Origin: Leucobacter chromiiresistens
GTDB taxonomy: Bacteria; Actinomycetota; Actinomycetes; Actinomycetales; Microbacteriaceae
Direction of reading: 5' to 3'
NCBI RefSeq assembly: GCF_900102345.1
Contig: NZ_FNKB01000001.1
Location: forward strand, 1,674,001 to 1,738,000
Length of the DNA: 64,000 nucleotides
A program made the position numbers and the translations under genes. Below, piece after piece: positions 15,458 through 56,981 of this stretch (its first letter is position 1; each line of letters starts with the position of its first letter). The notes under the pieces are model-generated. The model saw only the letters and a list, made by a program, of their open reading frames with translations. It ran no database searches and was not told the DNA's origin.

Positions 15458-15461
15458 CGCG

Positions 15462-16697: not shown

Positions 16698-16734
16698 GCC
16701 GGGCGCTGCGACCGCGCGGCGGCGGCTCAAGGCC

Positions 16735-18501: not shown

Positions 18502-18509
18502 CGCTCGCC

Positions 18510-18550: not shown

Positions 18551-18574
18551 GGACCGACGCGAACAGGCTCACAC

Positions 18575-19642: not shown

Positions 19643-19644
19643 TC

Positions 19645-37409: not shown

Positions 37410-37883
37410 ATGCACACTGTCAGCAGCGACATCGATATCGACCTTCCCGTCCGCACCGTCTACAACCAGTGGACGCAGTTCGAGGACTTCCCGGCCTTCA
37501 TGGGCGGCGTCGAAGAGGTGAAGCAGGTCGACGAGACGACGCTCAACTGGCGGGTCACCGTGGGCGGCGTCGAGCGCGACTTCCTCGCGAAGATCACCGA
37601 GCAGGTGCCCGACGAGCGCGTCGCCTGGAACAGCGTCTCCGGCCCGTCCCACGCGGGGGTCGTGACGTTCCACCGCCTCGACGAGAACAAGACCCGCGTG
37701 CGCCTCCAGCTCGACTGGGAGCCCGAGGGGTTCGTCGAGCACGCCGGCGCCCTGCTGCAGCTCGACGACGCGCAGGTGGCGAAGGATCTCAAGGAGTTCG
37801 CGCGCCTGCTCGAATCCAACGGCTTCGAGTCGGGGGCGTGGCGCGGAGCGGTCGACCGGCCGAACGACGGCACCGCCGTCTGA
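37410..37883 (+). CDS. SRPBCC-fold protein (polyketide cyclase/START-like)
   Basis: A 157-residue single-domain protein of the SRPBCC/START-like superfamily, which forms a hydrophobic ligand pocket. The opening IDIDLPVRTVYNQWTQFEDF and FMGGVEEVKQVDE segments match the COG5637-type subgroup, common in soil actinobacteria and alphaproteobacteria, often near stress genes. No catalytic residues can be assigned. It heads a same-strand run with the acidic protein, YbdK-type ligase and topoisomerase IB. The 43-base gap to the next gene and its own AGGAGT before the ATG fit an operon. Function is unknown. Confidence 0.82.
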   Translation: MHTVSSDIDIDLPVRTVYNQWTQFEDFPAFMGGVEEVKQVDETTLNWRVTVGGVERDFLAKITEQVPDERVAWNSVSGPSHAGVVTFHRLDENKTRVRLQLDWEPEGFVEHAGALLQLDDAQVAKDLKEFARLLESNGFESGAWRGAVDRPNDGTAV

Positions 37884-38192: not shown

Positions 38193-39305
38193 GTGAGTCG
38201 CACCGAGACCGATGCGCGCAGCTTCGGCGTCGAGGAGGAGTACCTGCTGCTCGACGCCGAGAGCGGCGCGCCCATCGACCGGGCGGCGCAGATCGTCGCG
38301 CGCCGCCCCGAGCTCCGCCGCGAGGCCGACCGGGAGTTCTTCTCCAGCCAGCTGGAGACGGCGTCGCCCGTGTGCACCGAGGCGGCCGAAGCCGATGCGG
38401 CGCTCCGCAGCTTCCGCGACACCGCGGGAGCTGCGGCGCGCGAGGAGGGCGCCGTGCTCGCGGGCACCGGCCTGCCGCCCGTCGGCGGCGAGCAGGAGGG
38501 ATCGGTGACGCCGAAGGCGCGCTACCGCGAGATCCGCTCCGAGCTGCGCGCGGCGGCGGCGCACCAGTACGTCACCGGCACGCACGTGCACGTCTCCGTG
38601 CCCTCGCGAGACGCCGGCGTCACGGCCCTGCGCGGTCTCGCGCGCTGGGCGCCCGCACTGCTCGCGATCACGGCGAACTCGCCGATCTGGTGCGGCGAGG
38701 AGACCGGGCTCGCGAGCTGGCGCCACATCAAGAGCATGTCGTGGCCCCTGGCCGGGTATCCGCCGGAGTTCTCCTCGGGCGACGAGTACGAGCAGACGGT
38801 GACCCGTCTGGTGGAGACGGGAGTGCTCATCGATCCGGGCATCGTGACCTGGGTCGCGCGCCTCTCCGAGCGGTTCCCGACGATCGAGCTGCGCATCGCC
38901 GACGCCCAGCTCGACCCCGAGTCGGCCGTGTCGTTCGCGCTGCTCGTGCGGGGCCTCGTCGACCGCGTGCTCGCCGACGTCGAGCGCGGCGTCGAGGAGC
39001 AGCGCGCCACGCCGGGGCTCGTGAACGGGGCGATCTGGATGGCGGCGCGCGACGGGCTCTCGACGTCGCTCATCGACCCCGTGCAGGGAACGGCCCAGCC
39101 GGCCGCCGCCATGCTGAATGACATGTTCGCGTACGCCGAGCCATCGCTGGAGAGCTTCGGCGACGCCGAACGCGTGGAGCGCTACCTCGGCGACCTGCGC
39201 ACGCACGGCGGGCCGGCGCAGCGCCAGCTCGCGAGCTTCCGCGAGAACGGCGTCGCCGGTCTGCTGGAGCTCTACCGCGCTGCCGGGGTGCAGGGGGCCC
39301 GATGA
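38193..39305 (+). CDS. YbdK-type carboxylate-amine ligase (GCS2 family, glutamate-cysteine ligase-like)
   Basis: ATP-dependent ligase, 370 residues, the usual YbdK length. The GVEEEYLLLD opening, the SQLETASPVC block, HVHVSVPS (metal/ATP site), the SWRHIKSMSWPLAGYPP block and ELRIADAQLDP are the family landmarks. Family members have weak gamma-glutamylcysteine synthase activity in vitro. In an actinobacterium that would normally use mycothiol the true product is uncertain. The GTG at 38193 is two bases after the acidic gene, and the stop overlaps the topoisomerase start (ATGA). Confidence 0.9.
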   Translation: MSRTETDARSFGVEEEYLLLDAESGAPIDRAAQIVARRPELRREADREFFSSQLETASPVCTEAAEADAALRSFRDTAGAAAREEGAVLAGTGLPPVGGEQEGSVTPKARYREIRSELRAAAAHQYVTGTHVHVSVPSRDAGVTALRGLARWAPALLAITANSPIWCGEETGLASWRHIKSMSWPLAGYPPEFSSGDEYEQTVTRLVETGVLIDPGIVTWVARLSERFPTIELRIADAQLDPESAVSFALLVRGLVDRVLADVERGVEEQRATPGLVNGAIWMAARDGLSTSLIDPVQGTAQPAAAMLNDMFAYAEPSLESFGDAERVERYLGDLRTHGGPAQRQLASFRENGVAGLLELYRAAGVQGAR

Positions 39306-40312
39306 GCGGGTCGGGCCGCCGCCGCGGCGGCCCGATCACGCGCGAGCTCGACGGCGACGGCTTCGTCTACCGGCGCGACGGGCGCCGGCTGACGGCGGCC
39401 AAGGAGATCGCGCGGATCGAGGCGCTCGCGATCCCGCCGGCCTGGACCGACGTGCGCATCGCGCGAGGCCCCTCGGCGAAGGTGCTCGCGCGGGGGATCG
39501 ACGCGGCCGGCCGCACGCAGATGATCTACCACCCCCGCTTCCGCCAGCGGCGGGAGCGCGAGAAGTTCGCGCGGCTGGGCCGGTTCGGCGCCGCGCTCCC
39601 CAAGCTCCGCGCCCGCGTCGACCGGGATCTGCGTCGCAAGCGCCTCGGCAGAGAGCGCGTGGTGGCCTGCGTGATCCGGCTCATCGACCTCGAGTTCTTC
39701 CGCGTCGGCAACGAGGAGTACGCGGCCAAGCACGGCAGCTACGGCGTCACGACGCTCCGCGAGGAGCACATCGAGGCGACCGGGAGCTCCGTGCGCTTCG
39801 ACTTCGTGGGCAAGAGCGGGAAGCGGCATGCGCGCCGAGTCGCGGACCCGCGCATCGCCCGACTGATCGCGCGGCTCGAAGAGCTGCCCGGAGACGAGGT
39901 GTTCCGCTTCTTCGAGGACACGGGAGTGTCTCGGCAGGTGCGCAGCAAGCACGTGAACGCGTACGTCAAACGCGTGATGGGCGAGGAGTTCACCGCCAAG
40001 GACTTCCGTACGTGGGGAGGCAGCCGCATGGCGCTCTCCTCACTGCTCGAGCACGACGAGGACGCGTTCCGCACGCAGAAGCGGGCGGCCGCCGCGACGC
40101 GGGAGGCGATCCGCTCGGCGGCGGAGCGGCTCGGCAACACGCCCGCCGTGACGAAGTCGTCGTACATCGACCCGCGGGTGCTCGCGCTCGCGGAGGACCG
40201 GGCGGCGCGGGAGCGGTTGCGCAAGGCGCGGAAGAAGATGCGCCCCGGCGAGCACCTGAGCGTCGACGAGCAGTGCCTGCTCGCGCTGCTGGCCCGCCGA
40301 GCCCCGCGCTGA
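39302..40312 (+). CDS. DNA topoisomerase IB
   Basis: Relaxes supercoils by a transient 3'-phosphotyrosyl link. The 336-residue product is of the compact bacterial/poxvirus type. The N-terminal domain includes IPPAWTDVRIA and GRTQMIYHPRFR. The catalytic domain includes the VIRLIDLEFFRVGNEEY and KHGSYGVTTL segments, GKSGKRH, the FRTWGGSRMA block and the nucleophile Tyr in TKSSYIDPRVL. All catalytic elements look present. Starts in the YbdK stop codon. Its pairing with a stress-type operon is a recurrent theme in actinobacteria. Confidence 0.95.
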   Translation: MSGSGRRRGGPITRELDGDGFVYRRDGRRLTAAKEIARIEALAIPPAWTDVRIARGPSAKVLARGIDAAGRTQMIYHPRFRQRREREKFARLGRFGAALPKLRARVDRDLRRKRLGRERVVACVIRLIDLEFFRVGNEEYAAKHGSYGVTTLREEHIEATGSSVRFDFVGKSGKRHARRVADPRIARLIARLEELPGDEVFRFFEDTGVSRQVRSKHVNAYVKRVMGEEFTAKDFRTWGGSRMALSSLLEHDEDAFRTQKRAAAATREAIRSAAERLGNTPAVTKSSYIDPRVLALAEDRAARERLRKARKKMRPGEHLSVDEQCLLALLARRAPR

Positions 40313-40618: not shown

Positions 40619-42079
40619 TCATGCCTCAGCGGTGGTGCGCAGGCGGTCGATGAGCTCGGTGGTGGAGTGATCGGGCACGTAGTCGAGGATCACCACCTCG
40701 CCGCCCGCGCGTCGCACCTCCGCCGCCTCCTCCAGCATCTCCGGCGTGTAGTCGCCGCCCTTCGCGTACACGTCGGGCCGCAGCTCACGGATCGTCGCGC
40801 ACGCGGTGTCGTCGTCGAAGACGGTGACGTAGTCGACGCACGACAGCTCCGCCAGCACGTTCGCCCGGTCGCGCACCCCGTTCACGGGACGCCCCGGGCC
40901 CTTCAGCCGTCGGGCGGAGTCGTCGCTGTTCAGCGCCACGACGAGCACGTCGCCCAGTCTGCGGGCCTGCTTCAGCGATGCCGTGTGCCCCCGGTGCAGC
41001 ACGTCGAAGCAGCCGTTCGTGAACACGATGCGGTCGCCCGCGCGCCGGTGCACGTCGAGGCGCTCCGCCAGCTCCGCCACCGAGATCTGGGGGTCGGGGG
41101 CGGCCGACGACCGCAGCTCCAGCTCGTCCAGTGAGCAGCGGCACGTGCCCGTGCGCTCCACCGCGATATCGGCCGCGAGCTGCGCGAGCTCGACGGCCCG
41201 CGGAAGCTCGCACCCCGCGGCCCGGGCCACCGACAGCGCCGAGACGAATACATCGCCCGCCCCCGACGCCTGCTGCTCGGGAGCCGCGTGCGCCCGCGTG
41301 CGATGCGGCGGGGCGTCATCGGTCAGCAGCACCGTGCCGGTGCGGTCGAGCGTGACCACGACCGCCTCCGCGCCGCTGCGCCGCCGGAGCGCGTCGCCGG
41401 CCGCCGCCGCGGCCGCAACCCGGTCCTCTCCCGAGCCGAGGCGCTCGCCGAGCAGCCGCTCCGTCTCGCCCGCGTTGGGCGTGATCACGTCGGGGCGGAG
41501 GGCCGCCCACCGGGCCGGGTCGTGCGCATCGACCACGAGCAGGGCGGCGCGGGGGAGCGCCGCGAGCGCCGAGATCATCGCGTCGTCGAGGAGGGCCGCG
41601 CCGTAGTCGCAGATCACGAGGGCGTCGCACTCGGCGAGCGCCTCGGCGAGGTCGTCGAGCAGCTGCCGCCGCACCTGCTCGGGCCACGGCTCGCGCTGGG
41701 TGTCGTCGAGCCGGATGAGCACCTGGTCGGCGACCGACACGCGCGCCTTCGTCGTGGTGCGCGCGCCCGCGACGCGCTGCAGCGCCCGCACGTCGACGTC
41801 GGCCTCCGTGAGACGCTCGCGCAGGCGGTCGCCCGGCTCATCGGCCCCGATCGCGCCGAAGGCGCGCACGCGGGCGCCGAGCGCGGAGAGATTGCGGGCG
41901 GTGTTCGCCGCGCCCCCCGGCAGATCGGAGGCGCCCGCGAGCTCCACCACGGGCGCCGGCGCCTCGCGCGCCACGCGATCGACCGTGCCGTGCCACCATC
42001 GATCGAGCAGGAAGTCGCCGAGCACCGCGATGCGGGGCTGCTGCGCGCGAATGCGGGCGATGCTGTCGAGCGGAGTCAT
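40619..42079 (-). CDS. hldE: HldE/RfaE-type bifunctional heptose-7-phosphate kinase / heptose-1-phosphate adenylyltransferase (copy 1)
   Basis: Would phosphorylate D-glycero-D-manno-heptose 7-phosphate at C1 and, after GmhB, add AMP to give ADP-heptose. In the 486-residue protein the PfkB kinase domain (about 1-325) has GDFLLDRWWHG, the canonical GGAANTARNL substrate loop and the catalytic ASGAGDVF. The nucleotidyltransferase domain (about 345-486) has FTNGCFDVLHRGH and LNSDDSARRLKGPGRP. Architecture and length match E. coli HldE (477). The ATG at 42079 heads the recognisable domain; the extension to 42286 is noise. It is divergent from a GT9 gene, 122 bases apart. Nucleotide specificity is inferred from family. 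Confidence 0.9.
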   Translation of the reverse strand: MTPLDSIARIRAQQPRIAVLGDFLLDRWWHGTVDRVAREAPAPVVELAGASDLPGGAANTARNLSALGARVRAFGAIGADEPGDRLRERLTEADVDVRALQRVAGARTTTKARVSVADQVLIRLDDTQREPWPEQVRRQLLDDLAEALAECDALVICDYGAALLDDAMISALAALPRAALLVVDAHDPARWAALRPDVITPNAGETERLLGERLGSGEDRVAAAAAAGDALRRRSGAEAVVVTLDRTGTVLLTDDAPPHRTRAHAAPEQQASGAGDVFVSALSVARAAGCELPRAVELAQLAADIAVERTGTCRCSLDELELRSSAAPDPQISVAELAERLDVHRRAGDRIVFTNGCFDVLHRGHTASLKQARRLGDVLVVALNSDDSARRLKGPGRPVNGVRDRANVLAELSCVDYVTVFDDDTACATIRELRPDVYAKGGDYTPEMLEEAAEVRRAGGEVVILDYVPDHSTTELIDRLRTTAEA

Positions 42080-42201
42080 GATGACCGCCTTTCGGGGAGA
42101 GTGACGACCGGTCCGTTTGAGATCGACCGGAAGCGGGCAGAAGAAGAGGAGGCGCACTGCGCGCCGAACGCCGCACACGCACTGACGCACTGGAGGAACC
42201 G

Positions 42202-43377
42202 ATGCCGCACGACCCGCGACCCGCCCCCGAGACGATCCCATCCGCCGAGGCGGCGGAACCGGCTGAGCGGCGGCCGATGGTGGCACCTCCCGGCGAGCGG
42301 CTCGCCGACGTGCGCAAGATCGCGGTGCTGCGGGGCGGCGGCATCGGCGATCTGCTGTTCGCGCTGCCCGCCATCACGGCGCTCGCCGCGGCCTACCCCG
42401 ACGCCGAGGTGACGCTCCTCGGAGCGCCCGCCGCGCGGCTGCTCGACGGGCGAACCGGAGCCCCGCATCGCATCGTGGAGCTGCCCGTCGCGCCCGGAGT
42501 GCACGAACCGCGCGGAGCCGAGAGCGATCCGGCTGCGGTGGAGCGCTTCCTCGCGGAGCAGCGAGCGGAGGGGTACGACCTGGTCGCGCAGATGCACGGC
42601 GGCGGACGCTTCTCGAACCCCTTCGCCGCGGCGCTCGGGGCGCGCTGCACGATCGGCACGCGCACGGACGACGCTCTCGCGCTCGACCGCTCGCTGCCGT
42701 ACGTCTACTTCCAGCACGAGGTGATGCGCTGGCTCGAGGTCGCGGGTCTGGTCGGTGCGCCGCCCGTCGATCTGGAGCCCCGTCTGCTCGTGACCGCCGA
42801 CGAGCGCGCGCGGGGCCGCGAGCGGCTCGGCGCGGCCCCGCGCACCGTCGTGGTCCATCCCGGAGCCACTGACCCGCGCAGGCGCTGGCCCGTCGAGCGA
42901 TTCGCGGCCGTCGCCGCCGAGCTGACCCGGGCCGGGGCGCGGGTCGCGGTGATCGGCGACGACTCCGAGCGCGCCCTCGCCGACGCCTTCGCGGCCGGTG
43001 CCGTCGCCGCGGGCGCAGCGGTCGAGCCGCTCAACCTCGCCGGCGAGCTGCCGTTCGCCGAGCTGCCCGGTCTGCTCGCCGCCGCCGACCTCTGCATCGC
43101 GAACGACAGCGGTCCGCGTCATCTCGCGCAGGCGGTGGGCACCGCCACCGCGTCCGTCTTCTGGTGCGGCAACCTGCTCAACGCCGGGCCCCTGGGCCGC
43201 GGGCGGCACCGCGCGCAGCTCTCGTGGACCACCCACTGCCCGGTGTGCGGGCGGAACAGCACGCAGGTGGGGTGGACGGCACCGAGGTGCGAGCACGATC
43301 TCTCGTTCGTCACCGATGTCGACGCCGAAGCGGTGCTCGCGGATGCGCGAGCACTGCTCGAGGCCCCCGCGCGCTGA
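42202..43377 (+). CDS. Glycosyltransferase family 9 (heptosyltransferase family), copy 1
   Basis: GT-B enzyme of the ADP-heptose:LPS heptosyltransferase family, 391 residues. An N-terminal polar tail of about 30 residues is followed by AVLRGGGIGDLLFALPAI (acceptor domain). The C-terminal donor domain has VVHPGATDPRRRWPVERFA and the CIANDSGPRHLAQAVGT block of GT9. The end is unusual: C346-x2-C349 and C363-x-H365 form a possible metal-binding cluster. GGAGG precedes the ATG. It is divergent from hldE copy 1 and convergent with the SDR gene. Confidence 0.88.
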   Translation: MPHDPRPAPETIPSAEAAEPAERRPMVAPPGERLADVRKIAVLRGGGIGDLLFALPAITALAAAYPDAEVTLLGAPAARLLDGRTGAPHRIVELPVAPGVHEPRGAESDPAAVERFLAEQRAEGYDLVAQMHGGGRFSNPFAAALGARCTIGTRTDDALALDRSLPYVYFQHEVMRWLEVAGLVGAPPVDLEPRLLVTADERARGRERLGAAPRTVVVHPGATDPRRRWPVERFAAVAAELTRAGARVAVIGDDSERALADAFAAGAVAAGAAVEPLNLAGELPFAELPGLLAAADLCIANDSGPRHLAQAVGTATASVFWCGNLLNAGPLGRGRHRAQLSWTTHCPVCGRNSTQVGWTAPRCEHDLSFVTDVDAEAVLADARALLEAPAR

Positions 43378-43395
43378 CGCGCGGGCGGGAGCCTC
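43360..43395. terminator. Bidirectional hairpin between convergent GT9 and SDR genes
   Basis: A perfect 8-bp stem CCCGCGCG/CGCGCGGG (43366-43373 with 43378-43385), loop CTGA. An outer GAGGC/GCCTC pair (43360-43364 with 43391-43395) extends it. It overlaps the GT9 stop. Confidence 0.55.
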
Positions 43396-43406
43396 GAGCC
43401 GGTCGA

Positions 43407-44117
43407 TCAGGGCCACGACGGCTCGTCCTCGGGGGCGATGACGAGTTCGCGCACCTCGGAGCGGGGCGGCTGCTGCAGGGCGAAGAGCACGGCGCGGGCG
43501 ACGTTCGCGGGATCGTTGAGCTGCGCGTCGGCCGCCGGGCGGTACTGCTGGGGACGGTCGTCGAAGAACGACGTCTGCATGCCTGCGGGAATGAGGGTCG
43601 TCACGCCGAGGCGCCCCGACGTCTCCGCGGCCAGTGCGCGGGAGAACCCGAGCACGCCGAACTTCGAGGCGCAGTACGCGGTGGCCTCGGGGAGGGCGCG
43701 CAGCGCCAGCGAGGAGGCGATCGTCACCACGCGCCCGTGCACCCGCTCGAGGTGGGGCAGCGCGGCGCGCACGGTCGACACGGTGCCGAGCAGGTTCACG
43801 CCGATCACTCGCTCCCACTCGTCGGCGGCGACGTCTTCGAGACGGCCGCAGCGGTCGATGCCCGCCGCGGTGACGACCGCGTCGATGCCGCCGAGCTCCT
43901 CCGCGACGGCCGCCACGGCGCGCTCCACCTGCGCGCGGTCGGAGACATCGGCCTCCTGGGCGACGGCGCGATCGTGCCACGCGCTGACGTCGAGGTCGAC
44001 GATCGCGGGGGTGCCCCCGGCCTCGAGCACGGCGTGGGCCACGGCGGCGCCGAGGCCGGAGCTGCCGCCGGTGATGAGGACGCGGCCGAGCGGGGTGGGA
44101 GTGGTCGAGAGGGTCAT
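43407..44117 (-). CDS. Classical short-chain dehydrogenase/reductase
   Basis: NAD(P)-dependent oxidoreductase, 236 residues. Cofactor motif TGGSSGLG (16-23); the active-site Ser in VTIASSLAL and YCASK (Tyr-x3-Lys) are present. This is a classical SDR and too short for the extended SDR HldD epimerase, so it is not the missing ADP-heptose epimerase. It follows hldE copy 2 by 111 bases on the same strand; AAAGGAC before the ATG shows its own ribosome-binding site, and it may be the last gene of the operon. Substrate is unknown; a sugar- or lipid-modifying role is only suggested by context. Confidence 0.85.
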   Translation of the reverse strand: MTLSTTPTPLGRVLITGGSSGLGAAVAHAVLEAGGTPAIVDLDVSAWHDRAVAQEADVSDRAQVERAVAAVAEELGGIDAVVTAAGIDRCGRLEDVAADEWERVIGVNLLGTVSTVRAALPHLERVHGRVVTIASSLALRALPEATAYCASKFGVLGFSRALAAETSGRLGVTTLIPAGMQTSFFDDRPQQYRPAADAQLNDPANVARAVLFALQQPPRSEVRELVIAPEDEPSWP

Positions 44118-44228
44118 CGAGGGTCCTTTCTCAGGGGGATTCGCGAAGCTGCGGCGGGGTCCGCGCAGCGGGTCTTCGGGGGCCCGGCGAGCGTCGCGTG
44201 CGCGTGCCTGCCGGGCGGGGCGGAGGCG

Positions 44229-45584
44229 TCAGCCGACGCGCGCGATGGCGTCGGCGAGCGCTGTCGTCGACCGGCCGAGGTGGTAGGGGAGGGTGAGCAC
44301 CCGCCCGCCCCACGACTCGACGAGCGCGGCCTCCGGGAGCGATTGCGCGCTGTAGTCGCCGCCCTTCACCCAGATGTCGGGTCGCAACCGGTCGAGCACG
44401 GCCTGCGGCCCGTCCTCCTCGAAGACCACGACCGCGTCGACGCAGGAGAGCGCCGTCAGCAGCTCGACGCGGTCGCGCTCCGTGATGAGCGGCCGCTCGG
44501 CGCCCTTCAAGCGGCGCACCGAGTCGTCGGAGTTGAGGCACACGATGAGGCAGTCGCCGAGCTCGCGCGCGGCGGCGAGCGTGCGCACGTGACCCGCGTG
44601 CAGCAGGTCGAAGCAGCCCCCCGTCGCGACGACGGTGCCGCCGGCGCTGCGGGCCTGCTCCGCCACCGCGAACGCGTCGGCTCCCGCCGCATCGGCGCGC
44701 GGCAGACGCGTGGTGCCGAGCGCTGCGACGCCCCCGGCGGCGAGGAACCCTCCCGCGGCGTCGACGCCGCGGCGCACCGCCTCGGGAAGGGGCTCGCCCT
44801 CCGCGAGCGCGATCAGGGCCGACGCGGCGTAGCGGTCGCCCGCGCCGCACGCGTCCGCCGCTTCGACGGGGCGCGCCGGGATGAGCGCCGGCGCGTGATC
44901 GGCGTCGAGCAGCAGGGCGCCCTGCGAGCCGAGGGTGACGGAGATCGCGATGCAGCCCCACCGTTCGCGCAGACGCCCCGCGGCCTCGGTCGCGGAGGCC
45001 GGATCGGGCGCGGTGCCGGCGGCCTTCGCCGCCTCCGAGAGGTTCGGCGTGACGAGGCGCGCCGACGGCACCGGGTCGGCACCCCGGGGATGCGGATCCC
45101 AGACGAGCGGCACCCGCGCCCCGCGTCGGTGCAGGGCGACGCGGATCTCGGGGTGGGCGGTGAGCGCCCGGCCGTAATCGGAGACGATGATCGCGTCGGC
45201 CTCCGAGATCGCGGTGATCATGTCGCGCGTGATGTGGGGCAGCACGGGGTCGCCGCATCCGTCGTCGATGCGGGCGACCGGCTGCCCGCCCGCCCGGAGC
45301 CGGGTCTTCACGGGCGTGGGGGCGGGCAGCGCGCCGGCGACGACGCGGATGCCGTCGAGGTGCTCGCGCAGCCGCTCGCCCGGCGCATCCGCCGAGAGCG
45401 CCGTCACGAGGGTCACCTCGTGCCCGTCGTGCAGCAGCATGCGGGCCACGAGCCCCGCCCCGCCGGCGCGCGACTGCCGGGACTGCACGTCCACGACCGG
45501 CACGGGGGCATCGGGCTGGAAGCGCTCGGCCACCCCGTCGATGTCTTCATCGAGGAGGGTGTCGCCGACGACGACGATATTCAT
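44229..45584 (-). CDS. Second HldE-type fusion: PfkB kinase plus nucleotidyltransferase (copy 2)
   Basis: A 451-residue paralogue of the protein at 40619 with the same two-domain layout. In the kinase half the opening GDTLLDEDIDG and the catalytic CGAGDRYAAS are present, but the GGAAN substrate loop is replaced by RAGGAGLVARML, so its kinase substrate may differ. The transferase half is canonical: ATGGCFDLLHAGH, LNSDDSVRRLKGAERP and VKGGDYS. It starts by ATGA overlap with the gmhA stop and belongs to the gmhB-to-hldE operon, making it the more likely pathway enzyme by context even though copy 1 looks more canonical. Confidence 0.87.
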   Translation of the reverse strand: MNIVVVGDTLLDEDIDGVAERFQPDAPVPVVDVQSRQSRAGGAGLVARMLLHDGHEVTLVTALSADAPGERLREHLDGIRVVAGALPAPTPVKTRLRAGGQPVARIDDGCGDPVLPHITRDMITAISEADAIIVSDYGRALTAHPEIRVALHRRGARVPLVWDPHPRGADPVPSARLVTPNLSEAAKAAGTAPDPASATEAAGRLRERWGCIAISVTLGSQGALLLDADHAPALIPARPVEAADACGAGDRYAASALIALAEGEPLPEAVRRGVDAAGGFLAAGGVAALGTTRLPRADAAGADAFAVAEQARSAGGTVVATGGCFDLLHAGHVRTLAAARELGDCLIVCLNSDDSVRRLKGAERPLITERDRVELLTALSCVDAVVVFEEDGPQAVLDRLRPDIWVKGGDYSAQSLPEAALVESWGGRVLTLPYHLGRSTTALADAIARVG

Positions 45585-46201
45585 GACTGCGGCTCCTTTC
45601 CGACGCACGCGTCGAACACTTCGCACACGGCGTGGATCGCCGCGAGCTGGCACTCCTGCACATGCGGAGACGCCCCGTCCAGGCAGATCGCGTCGTCGCA
45701 GAGGCGCGCGAGCGGGTTCGGCCCCGGCCCGGTGAGCGCCCAGCTCGTCGCCCCGGACTCCTCGGCGGCGCGCGCCGCCTCGAGGAGATTCGGGCTGCCC
45801 CCGCTGGTCGAGAGCAGCAGCACGATGTCGCCCGCCCGGGCGTGCGCGCGCACCTGGCGGGCGAACACCTGGTCGAAGCCGTAGTCGTTGCCGATCGCGG
45901 TGACGCTCGACGACTCGGCGTGCAGGGAGATCGCCGAGTAGGCGGCGCGATCCTCGCGGTAGCGCCCGACGAGCTCGGCGGTGAGGTGCTGCGCCTCGGC
46001 GGCCGATCCTCCGTTGCCGGCGACCAGCAGGCGGCGCCCGGCCTTCAGCCGGGTCGCGAGCTCGCGACCCCACGTTTCGAGGTGGTCGGCATGCCGTCGC
46101 GCGTGGTCGAGTGCGCGGGCGAGCGCGTCGAAGTGACTCGATACGAGGGTGGACGTCGGCGCCTCCGCCGCGATGGTCGGGGTGAGGGTGGGGGTGGTCA
46201 T
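45581..46201 (-). CDS. gmhA: Sedoheptulose-7-phosphate isomerase (SIS domain, GmhA)
   Basis: First committed step to ADP-heptose: isomerises sedoheptulose 7-phosphate to D-glycero-D-manno-heptose 7-phosphate. The 206-residue product has a single SIS domain. The AGNGGSAAEAQHLTAELVGRY block (60-81) and LLLSTSGGSPNLLEA hold the phosphate-binding Ser/Thr; the catalytic Glu of the AQHxxAEL segment and a late His in QLAAIHAVCE fit GmhA. An N-terminal extension of about 15 residues is Thr/Pro rich. It overlaps both neighbours by ATGA. Confidence 0.92.
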   Translation of the reverse strand: MTTPTLTPTIAAEAPTSTLVSSHFDALARALDHARRHADHLETWGRELATRLKAGRRLLVAGNGGSAAEAQHLTAELVGRYREDRAAYSAISLHAESSSVTAIGNDYGFDQVFARQVRAHARAGDIVLLLSTSGGSPNLLEAARAAEESGATSWALTGPGPNPLARLCDDAICLDGASPHVQECQLAAIHAVCEVFDACVGKEPQS

Positions 46202-47490
46202 AGTGCGGCCTCCGCGAGGTGGGCGCCCGTGGCGCTGTCGATGCGTGTGGTGATCTGCTGCGAGTGGTGCTGCGCTCGCTCGCGCAGGGTGCGCGCGTAG
46301 ATGAGCTCGGTGCGCGCCGCCACGCGCTCCCAGCTGTAGCGATGCTCGACGCGGGTGCGGCCCGCGGCTCCGAGCGCTGCGGCGAATGCGGGATCGGCGC
46401 GCAGGCGGGCGAAGGCCTCCGCGACGGCCTCCGGGTCCTGGGGCGGCACGAGCAGCCCGGTGCCCTCGTGCACGACGGTGTCGCCCAGGCCGCCCACGTT
46501 CGCGGCGACGACGGGCGTGCCGCACGCCATGCTCTCGAGCGGCACGATGCCGAAGGGCTCGTACCAGGGGGTGCACACGACGGCATCTGCGGCCCGGATC
46601 AGCGCGGGGACGTCGTCGCGGGGCACGCGGCCGAGGAACCGCACCTGATCGGCCACGCCGAGCGATTCCGCCAGGTCTGCGAGGCGCCGGGTCTCGGCGT
46701 CCGGGCCGACCGCGCCCGTCGGTGCGTCGCCGGTGCCGACGATGTGCAGCTCCACATCGGCGATCCCCTGCTCGCGGAGCACGCCGAGGGCCCGGATCGC
46801 GATGTCGACGCCCTTGCGCGGCACGAGGCGGCCGAGGCTCAGCACTCGGAACGCCCCTGCCCGGCGCGGCGGCCGATCGGCGTGCTCGAACATCTCGAGG
46901 TCGACGCCGCACGGCGCGATGTCGATGCGCTCGGCGGGGATGCCGAGCGCGTGCAGCTCCTCGACCTCGTCGGGGCACGTCGCGATGACGGTGTCGACGC
47001 GCTGCCCGACCAGGGGCTCGAGCCGCTCGCGCTCGGGCGGGCTCGTGTCGGCCGCGCCCTGGAACCGCCGCTTGACCGATCCGAGCGCGTGGAAGGTGTG
47101 GAGCACCGGCGGGTGGCCGGTGCCCCGCGCTTCCGCGGCGTCGAGTGCGGCGATGCCCGACATCCAGAAGTGGCTGTGCACGACGTCGGGCCGGTCGAAC
47201 CGCCAGGCGGCGGCCAGCCCCTCGGCGAGCGCGGGCAGGTGCGGCAGCAGTTCGTCCTTCGGCACGTGCTGCTCCGGGCCCGCGGTGAGGTGCACCACCT
47301 CGACCCCCGGGCAGAGCGTCACCCGGGTGCGCGTCGACGGGTCGTCGCGCCGCGTGTACACGGTGACGCGGTGGCCGCGCTCGGCCAGCGCGCGGGAGAG
47401 GGCGGCGACGTGCACGTTCTGCCCGCCCGCGTCGACGCTTCCCGGCGTCGCCAGGGGGTTGGCGTGCTCGGAGACCATGGCGATCTTCAT
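46198..47490 (-). CDS. GT4-type glycosyltransferase
   Basis: A 430-residue retaining GT-B glycosyltransferase. The N-terminal domain opens KIAMVSEHANPLATPGSVD with the GGQNVHVAALSRALAERGH loop; the C-terminal domain has LSLGRLVPRKGVDIAI, the donor-binding TPWYEPFGIVPLESMACGTPVV (E-x7-E) and VVHEGTGLLVPP. The pattern is close to sucrose-synthase/MshA-like GT4 enzymes. Donor and acceptor are unknown. Embedded by ATGA overlaps between another glycosyltransferase and gmhA, so it should act on the heptose-containing product or its primer. Confidence 0.92.
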   Translation of the reverse strand: MKIAMVSEHANPLATPGSVDAGGQNVHVAALSRALAERGHRVTVYTRRDDPSTRTRVTLCPGVEVVHLTAGPEQHVPKDELLPHLPALAEGLAAAWRFDRPDVVHSHFWMSGIAALDAAEARGTGHPPVLHTFHALGSVKRRFQGAADTSPPERERLEPLVGQRVDTVIATCPDEVEELHALGIPAERIDIAPCGVDLEMFEHADRPPRRAGAFRVLSLGRLVPRKGVDIAIRALGVLREQGIADVELHIVGTGDAPTGAVGPDAETRRLADLAESLGVADQVRFLGRVPRDDVPALIRAADAVVCTPWYEPFGIVPLESMACGTPVVAANVGGLGDTVVHEGTGLLVPPQDPEAVAEAFARLRADPAFAAALGAAGRTRVEHRYSWERVAARTELIYARTLRERAQHHSQQITTRIDSATGAHLAEAAL

Positions 47491-48494
47491 GATGCGACTC
47501 CTTCCGTCGTCAGCTGCGGCGCCCGGGTGCGGGATCGCGCCCGATGCGCGTGCGCCTCGTGCGCATCCGCGAGCACCGCGTCCCAGTCGTCGAGGAAGCG
47601 CGGGAGGCCGTAGCGCGCCGCAGCCGCCTCCCGCGCCACGGCGCCGCGGCGCCGCGCCTCGTCGGGGTCTCGGAGCAGGATGTCGGCGGTGGCGACGAGC
47701 TCGGCGGGGTCCGCCGACAGGGCGCCCGCCTCCGGCGGCACGGCCCGGCTCGCCTCCGTCGCGTCGAGCACGAGCACCGGCATCCCGAGGAACATCGCCT
47801 CGAGCAGCGACAGGCCGAGCGACGTCCAGCGCATCGGGTGCACGTAGGCCCGGCGGCGCGCCAGTTCGGCGTGGAGGTGCGCCGTCGGCAGGTCGCCGAC
47901 CACCTGCAGGCGATCCTCCCCGAGTCCGAGCGCCGCGGGCAGGCGGTCGGCGGCGATGCCGAAGCAGTCGAGCCGTCCCGCGCTCGCGAACGCCGGGAGC
48001 AGGTCGGTGCCCGTGACCCGCCCGCGCCGCACCGGTTCGTTGATGACGACGCCGAGCGCCTCGAGCTCTCCCGTGTACTGCTGACCCGGGTCGGGGATGC
48101 CGTGCTCGATGACGATCGTCGGCGCCGCTCCGCAGTCCCAGATGAGACGGTTGAAGTGGGTGACGTGCACGATGGGGATGTCGGTGCGCTCGGCGAGGAA
48201 GTGCTGCTCCGACACGGGCGACTGCTTGGGCGTGTTGTGCTCCACGAACACGGTCGCGACGTCGCGGCCGAGTCGCCGCCCCAGCAGCGATTCCGCCCAG
48301 GCGAGCTCCTCCGTGCGCTGCAGCACCACGAGGTCGACCTCCGCCTCCGCGAGCTCGCCGGGCTCCACGCGCCGCGCGTGCGCGGGCAGCGGGGGCATGT
48401 CGCGGCCGGCCTCGGCGGGCACGAGGTACTCGTGCGATCCGCTCAAGAAGGCCTGCATCCATCCCCCGTGCAGGTACCACACCAGAATCTTCAT
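47487..48494 (-). CDS. Glycosyltransferase, GT-B fold (GT4-like)
   Basis: A 335-residue protein starting KILVWYLHGGWMQAFL. The C-terminal domain has YVHPMRWTSLGLSLLEAMFLGMPVLVL, a GT4-like donor site with the two Glu of E-x7-E reduced to one clear Glu, so it is more divergent than its neighbour. A Cys-free N-terminal domain includes FVEHNTPKQSP and HVTHFNRLIWDC, reminiscent of spore-coat or teichoic-type transferases. It overlaps both flanking genes by four bases. Donor sugar is unknown. Confidence 0.83.
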   Translation of the reverse strand: MKILVWYLHGGWMQAFLSGSHEYLVPAEAGRDMPPLPAHARRVEPGELAEAEVDLVVLQRTEELAWAESLLGRRLGRDVATVFVEHNTPKQSPVSEQHFLAERTDIPIVHVTHFNRLIWDCGAAPTIVIEHGIPDPGQQYTGELEALGVVINEPVRRGRVTGTDLLPAFASAGRLDCFGIAADRLPAALGLGEDRLQVVGDLPTAHLHAELARRRAYVHPMRWTSLGLSLLEAMFLGMPVLVLDATEASRAVPPEAGALSADPAELVATADILLRDPDEARRRGAVAREAAAARYGLPRFLDDWDAVLADAHEAHAHRARSRTRAPQLTTEGVAS

Positions 48495-49582
48495 CGTCGT
48501 CCTTCCTCTCCGGCCCGCGGCGGCAGTGCCGCACTCGCGGGCTGTGCATGATGGGCGTTCGCCTGCTCCGGCGCCGCGAGATCGTCGACGGCGGCGAGCA
48601 CCGTCTCGGGGGCGACCCCCGCGAGGCACGGATGCCCGGCGATGGGGCACTCGCGCGCCCGAGACCCCGCGCACGGCGCGCTCTGGTCGCCGAGCAGCCG
48701 CACGGGTACGCCGTAGGGCGCCCACTTCACGGCGGGCACCACGGGCGAGAACAGGCTCACGACAGGTGTGCCGACCGCCGCGGCGAGATGCGCGGGCCCG
48801 CTGTTGCCCGAGACGAGCACGTCGGCGCCCGCGAGCACCCCGGCGAGTTCGAGCGTCGAGCACCGCCCGGCGAGGTCGACGGCCTCCGGAGCCTCGTCGC
48901 GGATGCGCGCGGTCAGCTCCGCCTCGCCGCGGCTCCCCGTGAGCACCACCGTGCGCCCGGCGTCGGTCAGCAGCCGCGCCAGGCGCGCGAAGTGCTGCAC
49001 CGGCCAGCGCCGCGCGGGCACGGCGGCCCCCGCGTGCAGCGCCACGTAGGGGCCGTTCCCGGTGAGGCGGCTCGTATCGGGCGTCGGCACGACGGCGAGG
49101 CGCCCGTCGTCGCCTCCGGGGAAGCCGGCCGCCTCGGCGATCGCCAGCGCGCGCTCGGGCTCGGGGAGATCCTCGCTCAGATCCTCGCCGGGCCGCAGCC
49201 GAACGTCGAGGAGCGATCCGGGATGGTCGACCGACGCGCCGGTGATGCGCTCGACCCCGGCCAGTCGCAGCAGCAGCGCGAGGGGGAGGGGCGACTGGTG
49301 GAAGGAGGTGAGGATCACGGCCTCCCGCGCGCCCGACTCGCGCACCCGGTCGATGAGCTGCTCGGTGTGCTCGCGGGTGACCTCGCGCCACGGCTCCGAG
49401 ATCCACGGCGCCTCCCACACGATGGTGTCGCTGATGCCGGGCAGCAGCGCCGCCCCGCCCACCCCGAGCGGGCCGCAGAGCATGACGACCTCCGCCTGCC
49501 GCGCGACGGCGCGGACGGCGGGCCCGGAGACGAGCACGTCGCCCATGCTGTCGAGCCGCGCCACGAGCACGGGGCCGCTCAT
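48491..49582 (-). CDS. Glycosyltransferase family 9 (heptosyltransferase), copy 2
   Basis: The most canonical of the three GT9 proteins, 363 residues. Acceptor domain LVARLDSMGDVLVSGPAVRAV; donor domain ALHAGAAVPARRWPVQHFARL, VSGNSGPAHLAAAVGTPVVSLF, then SPVVPAVKWAPYG. The Cys-rich tail C304...C312-P...H-P-C319-L resembles the CPxGHxxCL block of LPS heptosyltransferases such as WaaF. Transfer of a heptose from ADP-heptose is therefore a good inference. The acceptor cannot be lipid A. Second gene of the gmhB operon, ATGA-coupled on both sides. Confidence 0.91.
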   Translation of the reverse strand: MSGPVLVARLDSMGDVLVSGPAVRAVARQAEVVMLCGPLGVGGAALLPGISDTIVWEAPWISEPWREVTREHTEQLIDRVRESGAREAVILTSFHQSPLPLALLLRLAGVERITGASVDHPGSLLDVRLRPGEDLSEDLPEPERALAIAEAAGFPGGDDGRLAVVPTPDTSRLTGNGPYVALHAGAAVPARRWPVQHFARLARLLTDAGRTVVLTGSRGEAELTARIRDEAPEAVDLAGRCSTLELAGVLAGADVLVSGNSGPAHLAAAVGTPVVSLFSPVVPAVKWAPYGVPVRLLGDQSAPCAGSRARECPIAGHPCLAGVAPETVLAAVDDLAAPEQANAHHAQPASAALPPRAGEEGRR

Positions 49583-50142
49583 CGGTCGCCGTCCGTGTCG
49601 TCGCCGAGCACGTCGTCGCCGAGCGCGATCGCGACCGCCTCGGCGATCGTGGCCGCCACCGTGGTCGCGTCGGCGCGCTCCTGGGCCAGCGTGAGCCGCG
49701 TCGGCACGAGGATCCCCCGCGCGCCCGCGGCCTCGGCGGCATCGACGTCGGCGCCGATGTCGCCGATCATCACCACGTTCGCCGGTGCCACCGCGAGTTC
49801 GCCGGCCGCCGAGAGGATCATGCCCGGTCGGGGCTTGCGGCATTCGCAGCCGTCGCGCGGCGCGTGCGGGCAGAACCGCCACACGTCGAACGGGCCGAGC
49901 AGCTGCTCGACGCGCTCGTTCACGCGGCGCACCTGCTCGTGCGTGAGCAGCCCGCGGGCGATGCCCGACTGGTTGCTGATCACCCCGACGGGGATGCCCG
50001 CCGCCCGCACGCGATCGACGGCCGCGCGTGCGCCGGGCATCGGCTCGACCGCATCGGGGTCGCCGTTGTACGGCACGTCGACGATGAGGGTGTCATCGCG
50101 ATCGAACAGCACGGCGTGCACGGGCGGGGAGGGTTCAGTCAT
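49579..50142 (-). CDS. gmhB: D-glycero-D-manno-heptose-1,7-bisphosphate 7-phosphatase (GmhB-like HAD)
   Basis: Removes the 7-phosphate between the two HldE reactions. HAD-IIIA phosphatase, 187 residues. Nucleophile and acid are D14 and D16 in LFDRDDTL; ISNQSGIARG carries the second motif; MIGDIGADVDAA carries the metal-binding Asp. The GmhB-specific zinc loop is present as C91-x-H93-x5-C99-x-C101. First gene of a minus-strand operon of six genes (gmhB, GT9, GT, GT4, gmhA, hldE copy 2), all joined by ATGA overlaps. Divergent from a third GT9 gene, 143 bases apart. Confidence 0.93.
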   Translation of the reverse strand: MTEPSPPVHAVLFDRDDTLIVDVPYNGDPDAVEPMPGARAAVDRVRAAGIPVGVISNQSGIARGLLTHEQVRRVNERVEQLLGPFDVWRFCPHAPRDGCECRKPRPGMILSAAGELAVAPANVVMIGDIGADVDAAEAAGARGILVPTRLTLAQERADATTVAATIAEAVAIALGDDVLGDDTDGDR

Positions 50143-50285
50143 ACCTCTCCCGTGCCCCGAAGCAGGAGAAGTAAACGGACTGCCCGACCCCTTGCGCCCC
50201 TCTCGCTCCTGCGGTAGTCCAGAGGGTGATGCTCCGCTCGGACGACGAGTGCTCGCGGCGGGGCGCATGAGAGGGGAACCGACCT

Positions 50286-51275
50286 ATGACCCGACGGCAC
50301 CGTCCCGTGCTGCTCGCGCTGCGCACGCTGAAGCTGGGGGATCTGCTGGTCGCGGTGCCGGCGCTGCGCGCGCTGCGCCGCGCCTACCCCGACCACCGCA
50401 TCGTGCTCGCCGCGCCGGGGTGGCTCTCCCCGATCGTGCGGCTCGTCGACGCCGTCGACGAGCTCCTGCCCACTCCGGGGCTCGACGACCCGCTGCCGCT
50501 CGAACCGGGCAGCGTCGACATCGCCGTGAACCTGCACGGCAACGGCCCCGAGAGCCGCGACGTCATCGCAGCGCTCGAACCGCGCCGCCGGTTCGCGCAC
50601 CGGCTCCCCGACGACCCCGAGCCCGCGCCGGGCGCTGTCGTCGAGCCGGGCCCCGAGTGGATCGACGGCATGCTCGAGCGCGAGCGGTGGGTGCGGCTGG
50701 TGTCGGCCTTCGGCGCCGAGGGCGACCCTGACGAGGTGCGGATCGCGGTGCCCGAGGCCGTGCCGCCCGTGACGGGCGCGGTGGTCGTGCACGTGGGGGC
50801 GTTCTACGGGTCGCGCCAGTGGCCCGTCGAGCGGTTCGCCGAGGTGGCGCGCGCGCTGCGGGACGAGGGGCGCCGGGTGGTGGTGACCGGCGACGAGCGC
50901 GACGAGCCGCGGGCTGCCGCGGTCGCGTCGGCTGCGGGCCTGCCCGAGGAGGACGTGCTCGCGGGGAGGATCGGCCTCGCCGAGTTCGCCGCGGTGATCG
51001 CCCGGGCGCAGCTCGTCGTCACCGCCGACACCGGGGCCGGCCACCTCGCCTCGGCGTACGGTGTGCCGTCGGTCGTCATCTTCGGTCCGGCGCCGCCCGA
51101 GGAGTGGGGGCCGCCGCCCGGCCCGCACGCGGTGCTCACGGATGCCTCGGTGCGGCGCGGCGAGGCGTTCGCCGCCGACCCCGACCCGGCGCTGCTCGCG
51201 GTCACGGCGGAGGAGGTGCTCGCGGCGGCTCGTGCAGTGATGCGGGCGCCCGCCGAGGTCGCGCGACCGCGGTGA
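50286..51275 (+). CDS. Glycosyltransferase family 9 (heptosyltransferase family), copy 3
   Basis: A 329-residue GT9 protein: LLALRTLKLGDLLVAVPALRAL at the N terminus, VVHVGAFYGSRQWPVERFAEV and VVTADTGAGHLASAYGVPSVVIFGPAPPEEWGPP in the donor domain. Unlike copies 1 and 2 it has no Cys-rich tail. AGAGGGGAA precedes the ATG. Divergent from gmhB, so the 143-base gap between them should carry promoters for both sides of the locus; I see no confident boxes there. Confidence 0.9.
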   Translation: MTRRHRPVLLALRTLKLGDLLVAVPALRALRRAYPDHRIVLAAPGWLSPIVRLVDAVDELLPTPGLDDPLPLEPGSVDIAVNLHGNGPESRDVIAALEPRRRFAHRLPDDPEPAPGAVVEPGPEWIDGMLERERWVRLVSAFGAEGDPDEVRIAVPEAVPPVTGAVVVHVGAFYGSRQWPVERFAEVARALRDEGRRVVVTGDERDEPRAAAVASAAGLPEEDVLAGRIGLAEFAAVIARAQLVVTADTGAGHLASAYGVPSVVIFGPAPPEEWGPPPGPHAVLTDASVRRGEAFAADPDPALLAVTAEEVLAAARAVMRAPAEVARPR

Positions 51276-51320: not shown

Positions 51321-52163
51321 CTACGCGCGAGCCGGCTCGGCGCTCAGGGCGGCCCGCAGCCGCTGCAGAATGCTCGCGAGCAGGCGAGACACCTGCATCT
51401 GGCTGACGCCGCACTCGCGCGCGATCTCCGTCTGCGTCAACTGCTCCTCGAAGCGCAGGCGCACGATGCGCCGCTCCTCCTCGCTGAGGGTGCGCGTCGC
51501 CCGTTCGAGCGTGAGCGCCAGCTCGGTCCGAGTGAACTCCGCCTCCCGGTAGGGGAGGGAATCCCCGAGCGTGAGCTCCTCCGACGCCCCCGGGATGGGC
51601 GTGTGGAGCGAGATCGCGTTGCGCGCCGAGTGGCACTGCACGGCCTCCGCCACCAGCGCGAGCGGGCGGCGGAGCACCGCGGCGAGCTCGGCGATGCGCG
51701 GTGCACGGCCGAGCTCCTGCTCGAGCATCTCGCGCACCGCCGGCACCTCGATCGCGAGTTCCTGGAGCCGACGCGGCGGTCGCACGAACCACGACGTATC
51801 CCGCAGATACTGCTTGATCTCGCCCGAGATCGTGGGCACCGCGAACGATACGAGGTCGTCGCCCAGGTCGGGGTCGAAGCGCTCGACGGCTTTCGCGAGC
51901 CCGATGCACGCGACCTGCAGCACGTCGGCCGCATCCTGCTGCCGCACCCGGTACCGGCGGGCGATCGATCGTGCGAGGTCGAGGTACTCGACGACGACGC
52001 GCTGGTGCAGGCGCCGCCGCCCAGCCGGGTCCGCCCGACGGGCGGCCGACAGCAGGGCGATCGCGTGCGCGTTGCGGGCCTCGTCGGCGGCTGCCCGGTC
52101 GTTGCGATCGCCCGGAACAGCGGGAGCGGGGGTTGCGGCGAATGCGGGATTCGGGGCGAGCAT
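51321..52163 (-). CDS. SigB/SigF-type alternative sigma factor (sigma-70 group 3)
   Basis: A 280-residue sigma factor. Region 2: VVVEYLDLARSIARRYR, the DVLQVACIGLAKAVERFDP core-binding segment and FAVPTISGEIKQYLRD; region 3: APRIAELAAVL; region 4: the ERRIVRLRFEEQLTQTEIARECGVSQMQVSRLL helix-turn-helix. That is the general-stress SigB/SigF layout. GGAGGAGG precedes the ATG at 52163. No anti-sigma or anti-anti-sigma gene is adjacent, so control by partner switching, if any, is encoded elsewhere. Nearby small stress-type genes may be its targets. Confidence 0.92.
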   Translation of the reverse strand: MLAPNPAFAATPAPAVPGDRNDRAAADEARNAHAIALLSAARRADPAGRRRLHQRVVVEYLDLARSIARRYRVRQQDAADVLQVACIGLAKAVERFDPDLGDDLVSFAVPTISGEIKQYLRDTSWFVRPPRRLQELAIEVPAVREMLEQELGRAPRIAELAAVLRRPLALVAEAVQCHSARNAISLHTPIPGASEELTLGDSLPYREAEFTRTELALTLERATRTLSEEERRIVRLRFEEQLTQTEIARECGVSQMQVSRLLASILQRLRAALSAEPARA

Positions 52164-52411
52164 GAGCCTCCTCCAATGAGAGACAGCGGCCGGGGCCGAC
52201 GCGGCACCTCGGGCGCACGTGCGGGCGCCCGAGCGGGTACGGCACCAGCATCTCGGCGGCCGCCCGGCCCGGGCAGCGCCTTGCATCCGCGGAGCACTTC
52301 CCCTACCATTCCGGGCCCGGGCGGCGCCGCCGCCGATCACCCGCCGCCGGCAGCGCCGCGCTCGCACCGCCGCCCGCTGTCAAGGGGCTGCCCCGCGCCG
52401 CAGCGGATTCG

Positions 52412-55921: not shown

Positions 55922-56981
55922 TGTACTTGGTCATGAGGTTGGTGCCAGTCGGCTGATCGGGGGACGGCCGTGTGCGGCGGTGTGAGGTCGAGCGTAGTTG
56001 TAGTGCTCCAACCACGCATCGAGCGCGGCGGTGCGATCGTCGTTCGATGCGTAGGGGCGTCGATATGCCCACCCGTCGGCCAGGGTGCGGTTGAACCGTT
56101 CGGCCTTGCCGTTCTGCCACGGTGAGCGTGGACGAATCAGGACGTGAGTGGCCGTCAGCGCGGCCAGAGCGTTGCGGAACGCGCGGGAACGTCGGTAGGC
56201 CAAAGCGTTGTCCGTCATGACCTGACGGATGCGGACCCCGTGGCTCGCGAAGAACGCGGCGGCGTCGGCCATGAACGTCGCGCAGGTGGTCGCCTGCTCA
56301 TCGGGCAGGACCTGCGCGAATGCCAACCGGGTGTGGTCGTCCACGGCGACGTGGACGTAGTCGAAGCCGATGCCGCGTTTACGAACCTGCTCGGAGCGGC
56401 CGTGGGCGCGCCAGCCCCCACCGTCGGGGATGCGGCCCAGCTTCTTGACGTCGACATGGACCAGATCACCGGCACGCTCGCGTTCGTAACGGTGATCGGT
56501 GGCCCGTGAGGCACGGATCACTTCTCCGGTCACGCGATCGATATCAGCCAGACGTGGAAGGCCGGCCCGGCGGATGATCCGCCCGGCTGTCGAGGGCGAG
56601 ACACCGAAGCGGGCTGCCAACTCGAACGCGTTGTCCCGGTCAGCGATCCTGGCCGCTACGACCGCCGTCGCGATCTCCACCGGTGTGGCCGTCGGCATCG
56701 ATTTGGGCCTGGAGGAACGGTCTTCCAGGCCAGCCGGTCCTTGGCGGCGATAGCGACCCCACCAGCGGTGAGCACACGTGCGGGAGATCCCCATCTCCTT
56801 GGCCACATGGGACACCGGACGACCCGCAGCGATCCGTTCGCACAGGATCTGGCGGCCACGAATAGTCAGAACAGCATTACGGTGGGACAAGAGAAGGCCT
56901 CCCTCGGCGATGACTTAGACACCACCAATGATGGGGGCCTTCTCCCTTCCCCTCGTGATACCAACCTCATGACCAAGTACA
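55922..56981 (-). mobile_element. Complete IS481-family insertion sequence, 1060 bp
   Basis: Bounded by perfect 22-bp inverted repeats (55922-55943 and 56960-56981, starting TGTACTTGGTCATGAGG) and flanked by 6-bp direct repeats GCTAGC. One transposase gene fills it on the minus strand. Intact ends, intact target duplication and an open transposase frame suggest a recent, possibly active copy. Confidence 0.95.
55931..56890 (-). CDS. IS481-family transposase
   Basis: DDE transposase, 319 residues. The N-terminal winged/helix-turn-helix region (GRPVSHVAKEMGISRTCAHRWWGRY, in part) is followed by an rve integrase core. The acidic residues lie in LVHVDVKKLG, QVMTDNALAY and WQNGKAERFNRTL, giving a full DDE set. 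The C-terminal YNYARPHTAAHGRPP block is family-typical. The start appears to be TTG at 56890, and the TGA stop lies inside the inverted repeat (55931-55933), common for compact IS481 elements. No frameshift or internal stop is seen. Confidence 0.94.
   Translation of the reverse strand: MSHRNAVLTIRGRQILCERIAAGRPVSHVAKEMGISRTCAHRWWGRYRRQGPAGLEDRSSRPKSMPTATPVEIATAVVAARIADRDNAFELAARFGVSPSTAGRIIRRAGLPRLADIDRVTGEVIRASRATDHRYERERAGDLVHVDVKKLGRIPDGGGWRAHGRSEQVRKRGIGFDYVHVAVDDHTRLAFAQVLPDEQATTCATFMADAAAFFASHGVRIRQVMTDNALAYRRSRAFRNALAALTATHVLIRPRSPWQNGKAERFNRTLADGWAYRRPYASNDDRTAALDAWLEHYNYARPHTAAHGRPPISRLAPTS

Follow-up and report, generated by a model that had tools for sequence, protein, structure and literature searches.

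The 64,000-nucleotide stretch of Leucobacter chromiiresistens contig NZ_FNKB01000001.1 analysed here (the window) carries a block of ten genes at positions 40619-51275 that encode predicted heptose precursor enzymes and glycosyltransferases. The genome comprises 3,214,995 bases and is 99.44% complete. Six of the genes form a minus-strand run with a 4-nucleotide overlap at all five junctions. In order, they encode a GmhB-type HAD phosphatase (49579-50142; the open frame extends to 50268, and 50142 is the likely start), the GT9 family protein GT9B (48491-49582), a compact GT4-fold transferase here called GTx (47487-48494), a GT4 protein of the sucrose-phosphate synthase/MshA group (46198-47490), the predicted sedoheptulose 7-phosphate isomerase GmhA (45581-46201), and the kinase/nucleotidyltransferase fusion HldE2 (44229-45584). 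A gap of 111 bases separates HldE2 from an SDR oxidoreductase (43407-44117, minus strand). Beyond the latter lie GT9A (42202-43377, plus strand; the gene caller favours a start at 42277) and, divergent from it, a second kinase/nucleotidyltransferase fusion, HldE1 (40619-42079, minus strand). At the opposite end of the block, GT9C (50286-51275, plus strand) is divergent from GmhB. The grouping appears to go beyond chance because of the five successive overlaps and because the same gene order recurs in distant genera. A preliminary description of this DNA had named gmhA, gmhB with its zinc loop, two hldE fusions, three GT9 genes, and two GT4-like genes, and all were found in place and in the families given. 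Its statement that the block holds no flippase, polymerase, or natural-product core is borne out, but it had overlooked the SDR gene.

Comparison with protein families and solved structures supports a predicted route from sedoheptulose 7-phosphate to adenosine diphosphate (ADP)-D,D-heptose. GmhA scores 145.2 bits against TIGR00441 (cut-off 209.45), and phosphoheptose isomerases of known structure align over its length, the best being 1tk9 (130.7 bits). GmhB has the zinc loop C-P-H...C-x-C and matches HAD-IIIA (121.8 bits) and the D,D-heptose 1,7-bisphosphate phosphatase 4pnh (80.7 bits). It scores higher with the beta-heptose model PRK08942 (120.3 bits, cut-off 178) than with the alpha-heptose model NF050049 (52.1 bits). 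The nucleotidyltransferase halves of both HldE proteins exceed the TIGR02199 cut-off (184.6 and 187.3 bits against 181.5), and the only two matches to rfaE domain II over cut-off in the whole genome are both in the block. With TIGR02198 their kinase halves stay under the cut-off (221.8 and 148.9 against 345 bits), and the two fusions also score under the NCBIfam HldE equivalog (362.8 and 288.0 against 521 bits). The heptose 7-phosphate kinase 4e84 aligns with each of the two kinase halves, and 5x9q with each of the two nucleotidyltransferase halves. The catalytic motifs GAGD and GxFDxLHxGH are present in both fusions, the latter as GCFDVLHRGH in HldE1 and GCFDLLHAGH in HldE2. The C6 epimerase HldD has no match over cut-off in the whole genome (best 99.8 of 274.6 bits), and a core like that of lipopolysaccharide (LPS) made with HldD was rejected on this ground. 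The complete ADP-heptose pathway first proposed therefore stands for ADP-D,D-heptose and no further.

The three GT9 proteins match PF01075 at 94.1, 89.9, and 85.3 bits (cut-off 22), and a scan of the whole genome found no other member of the family. The LPS heptosyltransferase WaaF (1psw) is matched by GT9B (as a profile), GT9C, and GT9A, and WaaC by GT9B and GT9C. Asp15 in the GD motif of GT9B is invariant among 15 sequences. GT4 matches PF00534 at 144 bits and GTx at only 38 bits; the predicted model of GTx has a GT4-type GT-B fold with a mean predicted local distance difference test score of 90.1. Leucobacter proteins with 87% and 84% identity are its closest relatives from named organisms. 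The presence of two GT9 and two GT4-fold enzymes in the conserved core suggests a short oligosaccharide with at least one heptose.

Related loci occur widely in actinobacteria. The best 80 of at least 568 relatives in named genomes were kept, so the counts are biased to near relatives, and genes were counted over the 72 named loci longer than 15 kb. Presence was scored by tblastn because our own gene caller misses genes in Arthrobacter of lower guanine-cytosine content. The six-gene core GmhB-GT9B-GTx-GT4-GmhA-HldE2 was found in this order within 9 kb in 64 of the 72 loci. Counted singly, GmhB and GTx were each present in 69, GT4 and HldE2 each in 68, and GmhA in 67. Other genes varied more: SDR was found in 62 loci, GT9C in 61, HldE1 in 53, GT9A in 42, a relative of the sigma factor gene beside the block in 41, an aldehyde dehydrogenase in 40, and GT2 in 18. 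The named genera include Leucobacter, Curtobacterium, Arthrobacter, Brevibacterium, Pseudonocardia, Modestobacter, Nocardiopsis, Streptosporangium, and Streptomyces. Across the phylum, the GTx profile matched 30 of 296 genomes. Twelve loci fetched from these 30 all carried GT9B, GTx, GT4, GmhA, and HldE2, with the order rearranged in places; GmhB and a carbamoyltransferase were present in 11 (the twelfth is cut at its edge) and GT9C in nine, while HldE1 and GT9A were found in none of the 12.

The comparison of the locus across Microbacteriaceae that the preliminary description had proposed covered 150 genomes of the family. Twenty-six of them, our own included, have GTx at 300 bits or more (next best 33.5 bits), and two other genomes of the genus that were examined are not among them. 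GT9B and GT4 adjoin GTx in 21 of these 26 loci, and one more pairs GTx with GT9A, GT9C, and HldE1. In a scan of 394 genomes of the class, 94 had a GT9B match at E ≤1e-20. A GT9B tree of 93 rows (the window, the 79 of 80 named loci that passed the filter, and 13 others) broadly follows families, and Microbacteriaceae do not form one clade in it. A metagenome-assembled contig labelled Streptomyces (L090) falls among Arthrobacter in this tree and is likely mislabelled or mis-binned. Two Brevibacterium loci (L143 and L160) have GT4 and GmhA in one open frame, a possible gene fusion. The nearest Leucobacter locus (L087) has a GT2 gene between HldE1 and topoisomerase IB, where the window has about 300 bases and no such gene.

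The HldE proteins of these loci differ in their motifs. HldE1 retains the usual heptose-kinase motif GGAAN (GGAANTARN in the window). At this site HldE2 reads GGAGL in the window and, in most named loci, either GGAGL or GGAAL, with GAGD and HxGH kept. The Streptomyces loci that were checked carry HldE2 only, so HldE2 must perform both steps there if the pathway runs. According to the available portions of PMC11573728, the STTR5 motif (F/L)XXGRSTT marks acceptance of cytidine and uridine triphosphates by heptose nucleotidyltransferases. HldE2 in the window reads YHLGRSTT, which includes the motif Arg (Arg438) and has Tyr in the F/L place; the C-terminal sequence of HldE1 is YVPDHSTT. The Arg was present in 54 of the 61 HldE2 motifs extracted from named loci (13 of 74 yielded no motif) and in 18 of the 52 HldE1 motifs (4 of 56 yielded no motif).

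The cwg operon of Streptomyces coelicolor (SCO6179-6190, cwgA-L) is described in the available portions of three papers as predicted to direct cell wall glycan synthesis (PMC6767563; PMC5839063; PMC13011467). The name "cell wall glycan" was given in 2002 on prediction alone (Hong et al. 2002, cited in PMC6767563). The same portions report that the operon is vancomycin-induced and partly sigmaE-dependent (PMC6767563) and that cwgA is salt-induced (PMC13011467). In the published annotation, SCO6186, in eighth place, is a phosphoheptose isomerase, and SCO6187, in ninth place, is a bifunctional synthase/transferase (PMC5839063); the "putative dehydratase" in fourth place is presumably a GmhB-type phosphatase. 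The promoter sequence from PMC6767563 was searched in 392 genomes from the genus to which G279, a Streptomyces-type genome, belongs, and was found with at most three mismatches in 10 (none with a reversed-pattern control). Seven of the 10 promoter loci have a cwgA-type epimerase adjacent, one more has GT2, and two have neither within 1.5 kb. The exact promoter occurs in the Streptomyces-group genome G767, whose GT9B adjoins named Streptomyces in the tree (100/99). It is followed there by 12 genes on the same strand, for an epimerase, a carbamoyltransferase, GT2, GmhB, GT9B, GTx, GT4, GmhA, HldE2, GT9C, and two further GT2 proteins. G279 has the same 12 genes behind a promoter with two mismatches. 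Genes 4 to 10 of the G767 stretch (L186) match GmhB, GT9B, GTx, GT4, GmhA, HldE2, and GT9C of the window in the same order, with 47-64% identity.

Judged by this order and identity, the window block is homologous to the cwg operon, which for S. coelicolor is known here from its published annotation and promoter. The seven window genes just listed are predicted counterparts of cwgD to cwgJ, respectively, and the first six form the ordered core. Compared with cwg, the window lacks the epimerase, the carbamoyltransferase, the three GT2 genes, and the single-direction set of 12 genes, while it adds HldE1, GT9A, and SDR and has GT9C on the opposite strand. Carbam_trans_C has no match in the whole Leucobacter genome, and the cluster GT2 has no convincing match there (best 25 bits); elsewhere the genome encodes an aldehyde dehydrogenase that shares 60% identity with the cluster type. 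Because the full 12-gene set is absent, we regard the block as a homologous variant and not as the cwg operon itself. By gene content it is a Micrococcales-type variant of the cluster, with a second HldE, a third GT9, and no carbamoyltransferase. The preliminary description was right that a Gram-positive actinobacterium has the D,D-heptose precursor set together with GT9 proteins. The rarity that it supposed for such organisms is not borne out, with the core spread over the phylum and homologous to the cwg operon.

The reading that we favour, with moderate confidence, is that this variant of the cwg cluster makes a D,D-heptose-containing oligosaccharide and that this product comes to lie in or on the cell envelope. 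The HldE kinase domain would add a 1-phosphate, GmhB would remove the 7-phosphate, and the HldE nucleotidyltransferase would yield ADP-D,D-heptose. HldE2, with the Arg of the STTR5 motif, may also yield cytidine diphosphate (CDP)- and uridine diphosphate (UDP)-heptose. GT9B, GT9C, and GT9A, together with GT4 and GTx, would assemble, in the cytosol, a short oligosaccharide that contains heptose, and SDR would oxidise a sugar or a precursor. Decoration would be specific to lineages, through the carbamoyltransferase, epimerase, and GT2 in Streptomyces and through SDR, aldehyde dehydrogenase, GT9A, and HldE1 in Micrococcales. The families, most catalytic motifs, the gene order, and the cwg homology can be read directly from the DNA. 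Because most genes of the block score under curated equivalog cut-offs, the substrates are predictions, and so are the heptose in the product and the order of transfer. The acceptor, the export, and the envelope location are more conjectural. An envelope role is suggested by the vancomycin induction and partial sigmaE dependence of cwg, and the genome encodes three LytR-CpsA-Psr proteins, so wall attachment of the glycan is possible. A heptose-containing surface glycan in Leucobacter is plausible. More tentatively, the cwg glycan in general may be a D,D-heptose oligosaccharide made from nucleoside diphosphate (NDP)-heptose by GT9 enzymes of a cluster that has no lipid carrier, flippase, or polymerase of its own. 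It would then be a phylum-wide Gram-positive counterpart of LPS inner-core heptose chemistry, with CDP- and UDP-heptose as possible donors where HldE2 has the STTR5 Arg.

Several observations weigh against a heptose glycan of the envelope. The kinase domains, GmhA, and GmhB fall under their equivalog cut-offs, and none of the three GT9 proteins reaches the cut-off of the LPS heptosyltransferase equivalogs TIGR02193, TIGR02195, and TIGR02201. The Asn of GGAAN is missing from the kinase motif of HldE2. GT9B has Asn260, a D-to-N change at its D(S/T)G motif, where WaaC and WaaF have an Asp that we take to be a heptose contact. The cwg promoter is scarce, being absent from 382 of the 392 genomes, and a search for the S. 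coelicolor sequence in the best 80 named loci did not find it (best seven mismatches, in rows that are not Streptomyces). Four of the 26 Microbacteriaceae loci have GTx without other cluster genes in the fetched stretch, with a FADox-like match in one. The block holds no lipid-carrier transferase, flippase, or polymerase, and heptose in a cluster product is not reported in the available portions of the literature consulted. The best solved-structure matches of GT4 are sucrose-phosphate synthase (233 bits) and MshA (194.7 bits), and this kinship counts against an envelope glycan because the acceptors of both enzymes are soluble and phosphorylated.

The kinship of GT4 also makes a soluble product a real rival. 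The cluster may make a heptose oligosaccharide that stays in the cytosol as a stress solute or storage glycoside and is begun by GT4 on a phosphorylated small molecule. We consider this unlikely, although GT4 keeps Lys78 of MshA, the block has a sigma factor and a trehalose-phosphate synthase/phosphatase fusion beside it, and no gene for export or polymerisation is present in it. Lys78 is the only one of four presumed phosphate contacts of MshA that GT4 keeps, and the other three are altered (Y110F, T134A, and R154E). Judged by gene-call clusters, 20 fetched Microbacteriaceae stretches do not show the trehalose gene as a conserved neighbour. The induction of cwg by vancomycin through sigmaE, among envelope functions, also argues against a soluble solute (PMC6767563, available portions).

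It is less likely still that the enzymes act on another sugar and that their heptose names are inherited from distant relatives. Such a view would fit the family scores, most of which are under equivalog cut-offs, the Asn in GT9B, and the altered kinase motif of HldE2. Against it stand the joint occurrence of isomerase, kinase, phosphatase, nucleotidyltransferase, and GT9 in one conserved order, the two nucleotidyltransferase domains over cut-off, and the alignment of GmhA along its length with phosphoheptose isomerases. That the cluster feeds a secreted, heptose-bearing natural product akin to septacidin or hygromycin B is very improbable: heptose natural products of actinobacteria reportedly derive from sedoheptulose 7-phosphate (Tang, in 2018), but the block showed no core-building enzyme, and the phylum-wide core and a GT9B tree that broadly follows families are, in our judgement, unlike a typical accessory product cluster.

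Regulatory patterns were compared in 45 GT9C/GmhB intergenic stretches. The sigmaE-type pattern AAC-N16-18-CGTC was found in three (shuffles: mean 0.94, maximum 5) and GGAAC-N15-18-CGTC in two (shuffles: mean 0.1, maximum 1). The pattern set applied to the window's own spacers gave no match. A sigma-70 family factor with regions 2, 3, and 4 (51321-52367, minus strand) lies tail to tail with GT9C, as a neighbour of the block. Its direct control of the cluster was considered and rejected, as both sigma-F-type patterns were found in 0 of the 45 stretches. The fused trehalose-phosphate synthase/phosphatase (Glyco_transf_20 and Trehalose_PPase, 34893-37190) lies upstream of the block. Between the two come genes of the Polyketide_cyc family (37410-37883) and for a GCS2-family ligase (38193-39305), and then one for a bacterial topoisomerase IB (39302-40312). 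An IS481-type transposase (rve_3, LZ_Tnp_IS481) is located near the block at 55931-56890. Elsewhere, the window carries two oligopeptide-type ATP-binding cassette transporter sets with solute-binding proteins, permeases, and fused ATPases (8186-22376), and a row of minus-strand MoxR-type ATPase, DUF58, and TgpA/transglutaminase genes (30166-34750).

A heptose reading of cwg may be new, while NDP-heptose enzymes in actinobacteria are already known. We found no such reading of cwg in the literature as judged by titles and the openings of abstracts, with subscription journals thinly covered, and the word "heptose" is absent from the cwg passages of PMC6767563 and PMC13011467. Two other leads were set aside: the seen portion of a paper on umbrella toxins concerns a different, teichuronic-acid-like locus and does not contain "cwg", and that of a Frankia salt-stress paper names a single GT9-type gene. 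Glycan statistics for actinobacteria, as far as available, confine L-glycero-D-manno-heptose to Gram-negatives, a result that is neither proof of D-glycero-heptose in Leucobacter nor an argument that excludes it. With an ordered heptose pathway and GT9 genes across the phylum, the long-standing question of the cwg glycan becomes directly testable. The preliminary description called ADP-heptose an agonist of the animal receptor ALPK1, in agreement with the available text of published work in which NDP-heptoses are sensed by vertebrate ALPK1 (PMC11573728). If our reading is true, Gram-positive actinobacteria would join the sources of such NDP-heptoses; this bears on their potential and not on release.

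The block can be compared with two further known systems. It shares with the LPS inner-core pathway (GmhA-HldE-GmhB-HldD with WaaC/WaaF) the same precursor enzymes and the same GT9 family. It differs in that the Gram-positive Leucobacter has no HldD over cut-off and no GT9 protein at the cut-off of the LPS heptosyltransferase equivalogs. Tridomain NDP-heptose synthetases of actinobacteria, reportedly the subject of work by Tang in 2022 that we know by its title, belong to the same phylum, and the reactions predicted for the block are the same. In these synthetases the isomerase, kinase, and nucleotidyltransferase are joined in one chain, whereas in the window GmhA and HldE2 are encoded by separate, overlapping genes.

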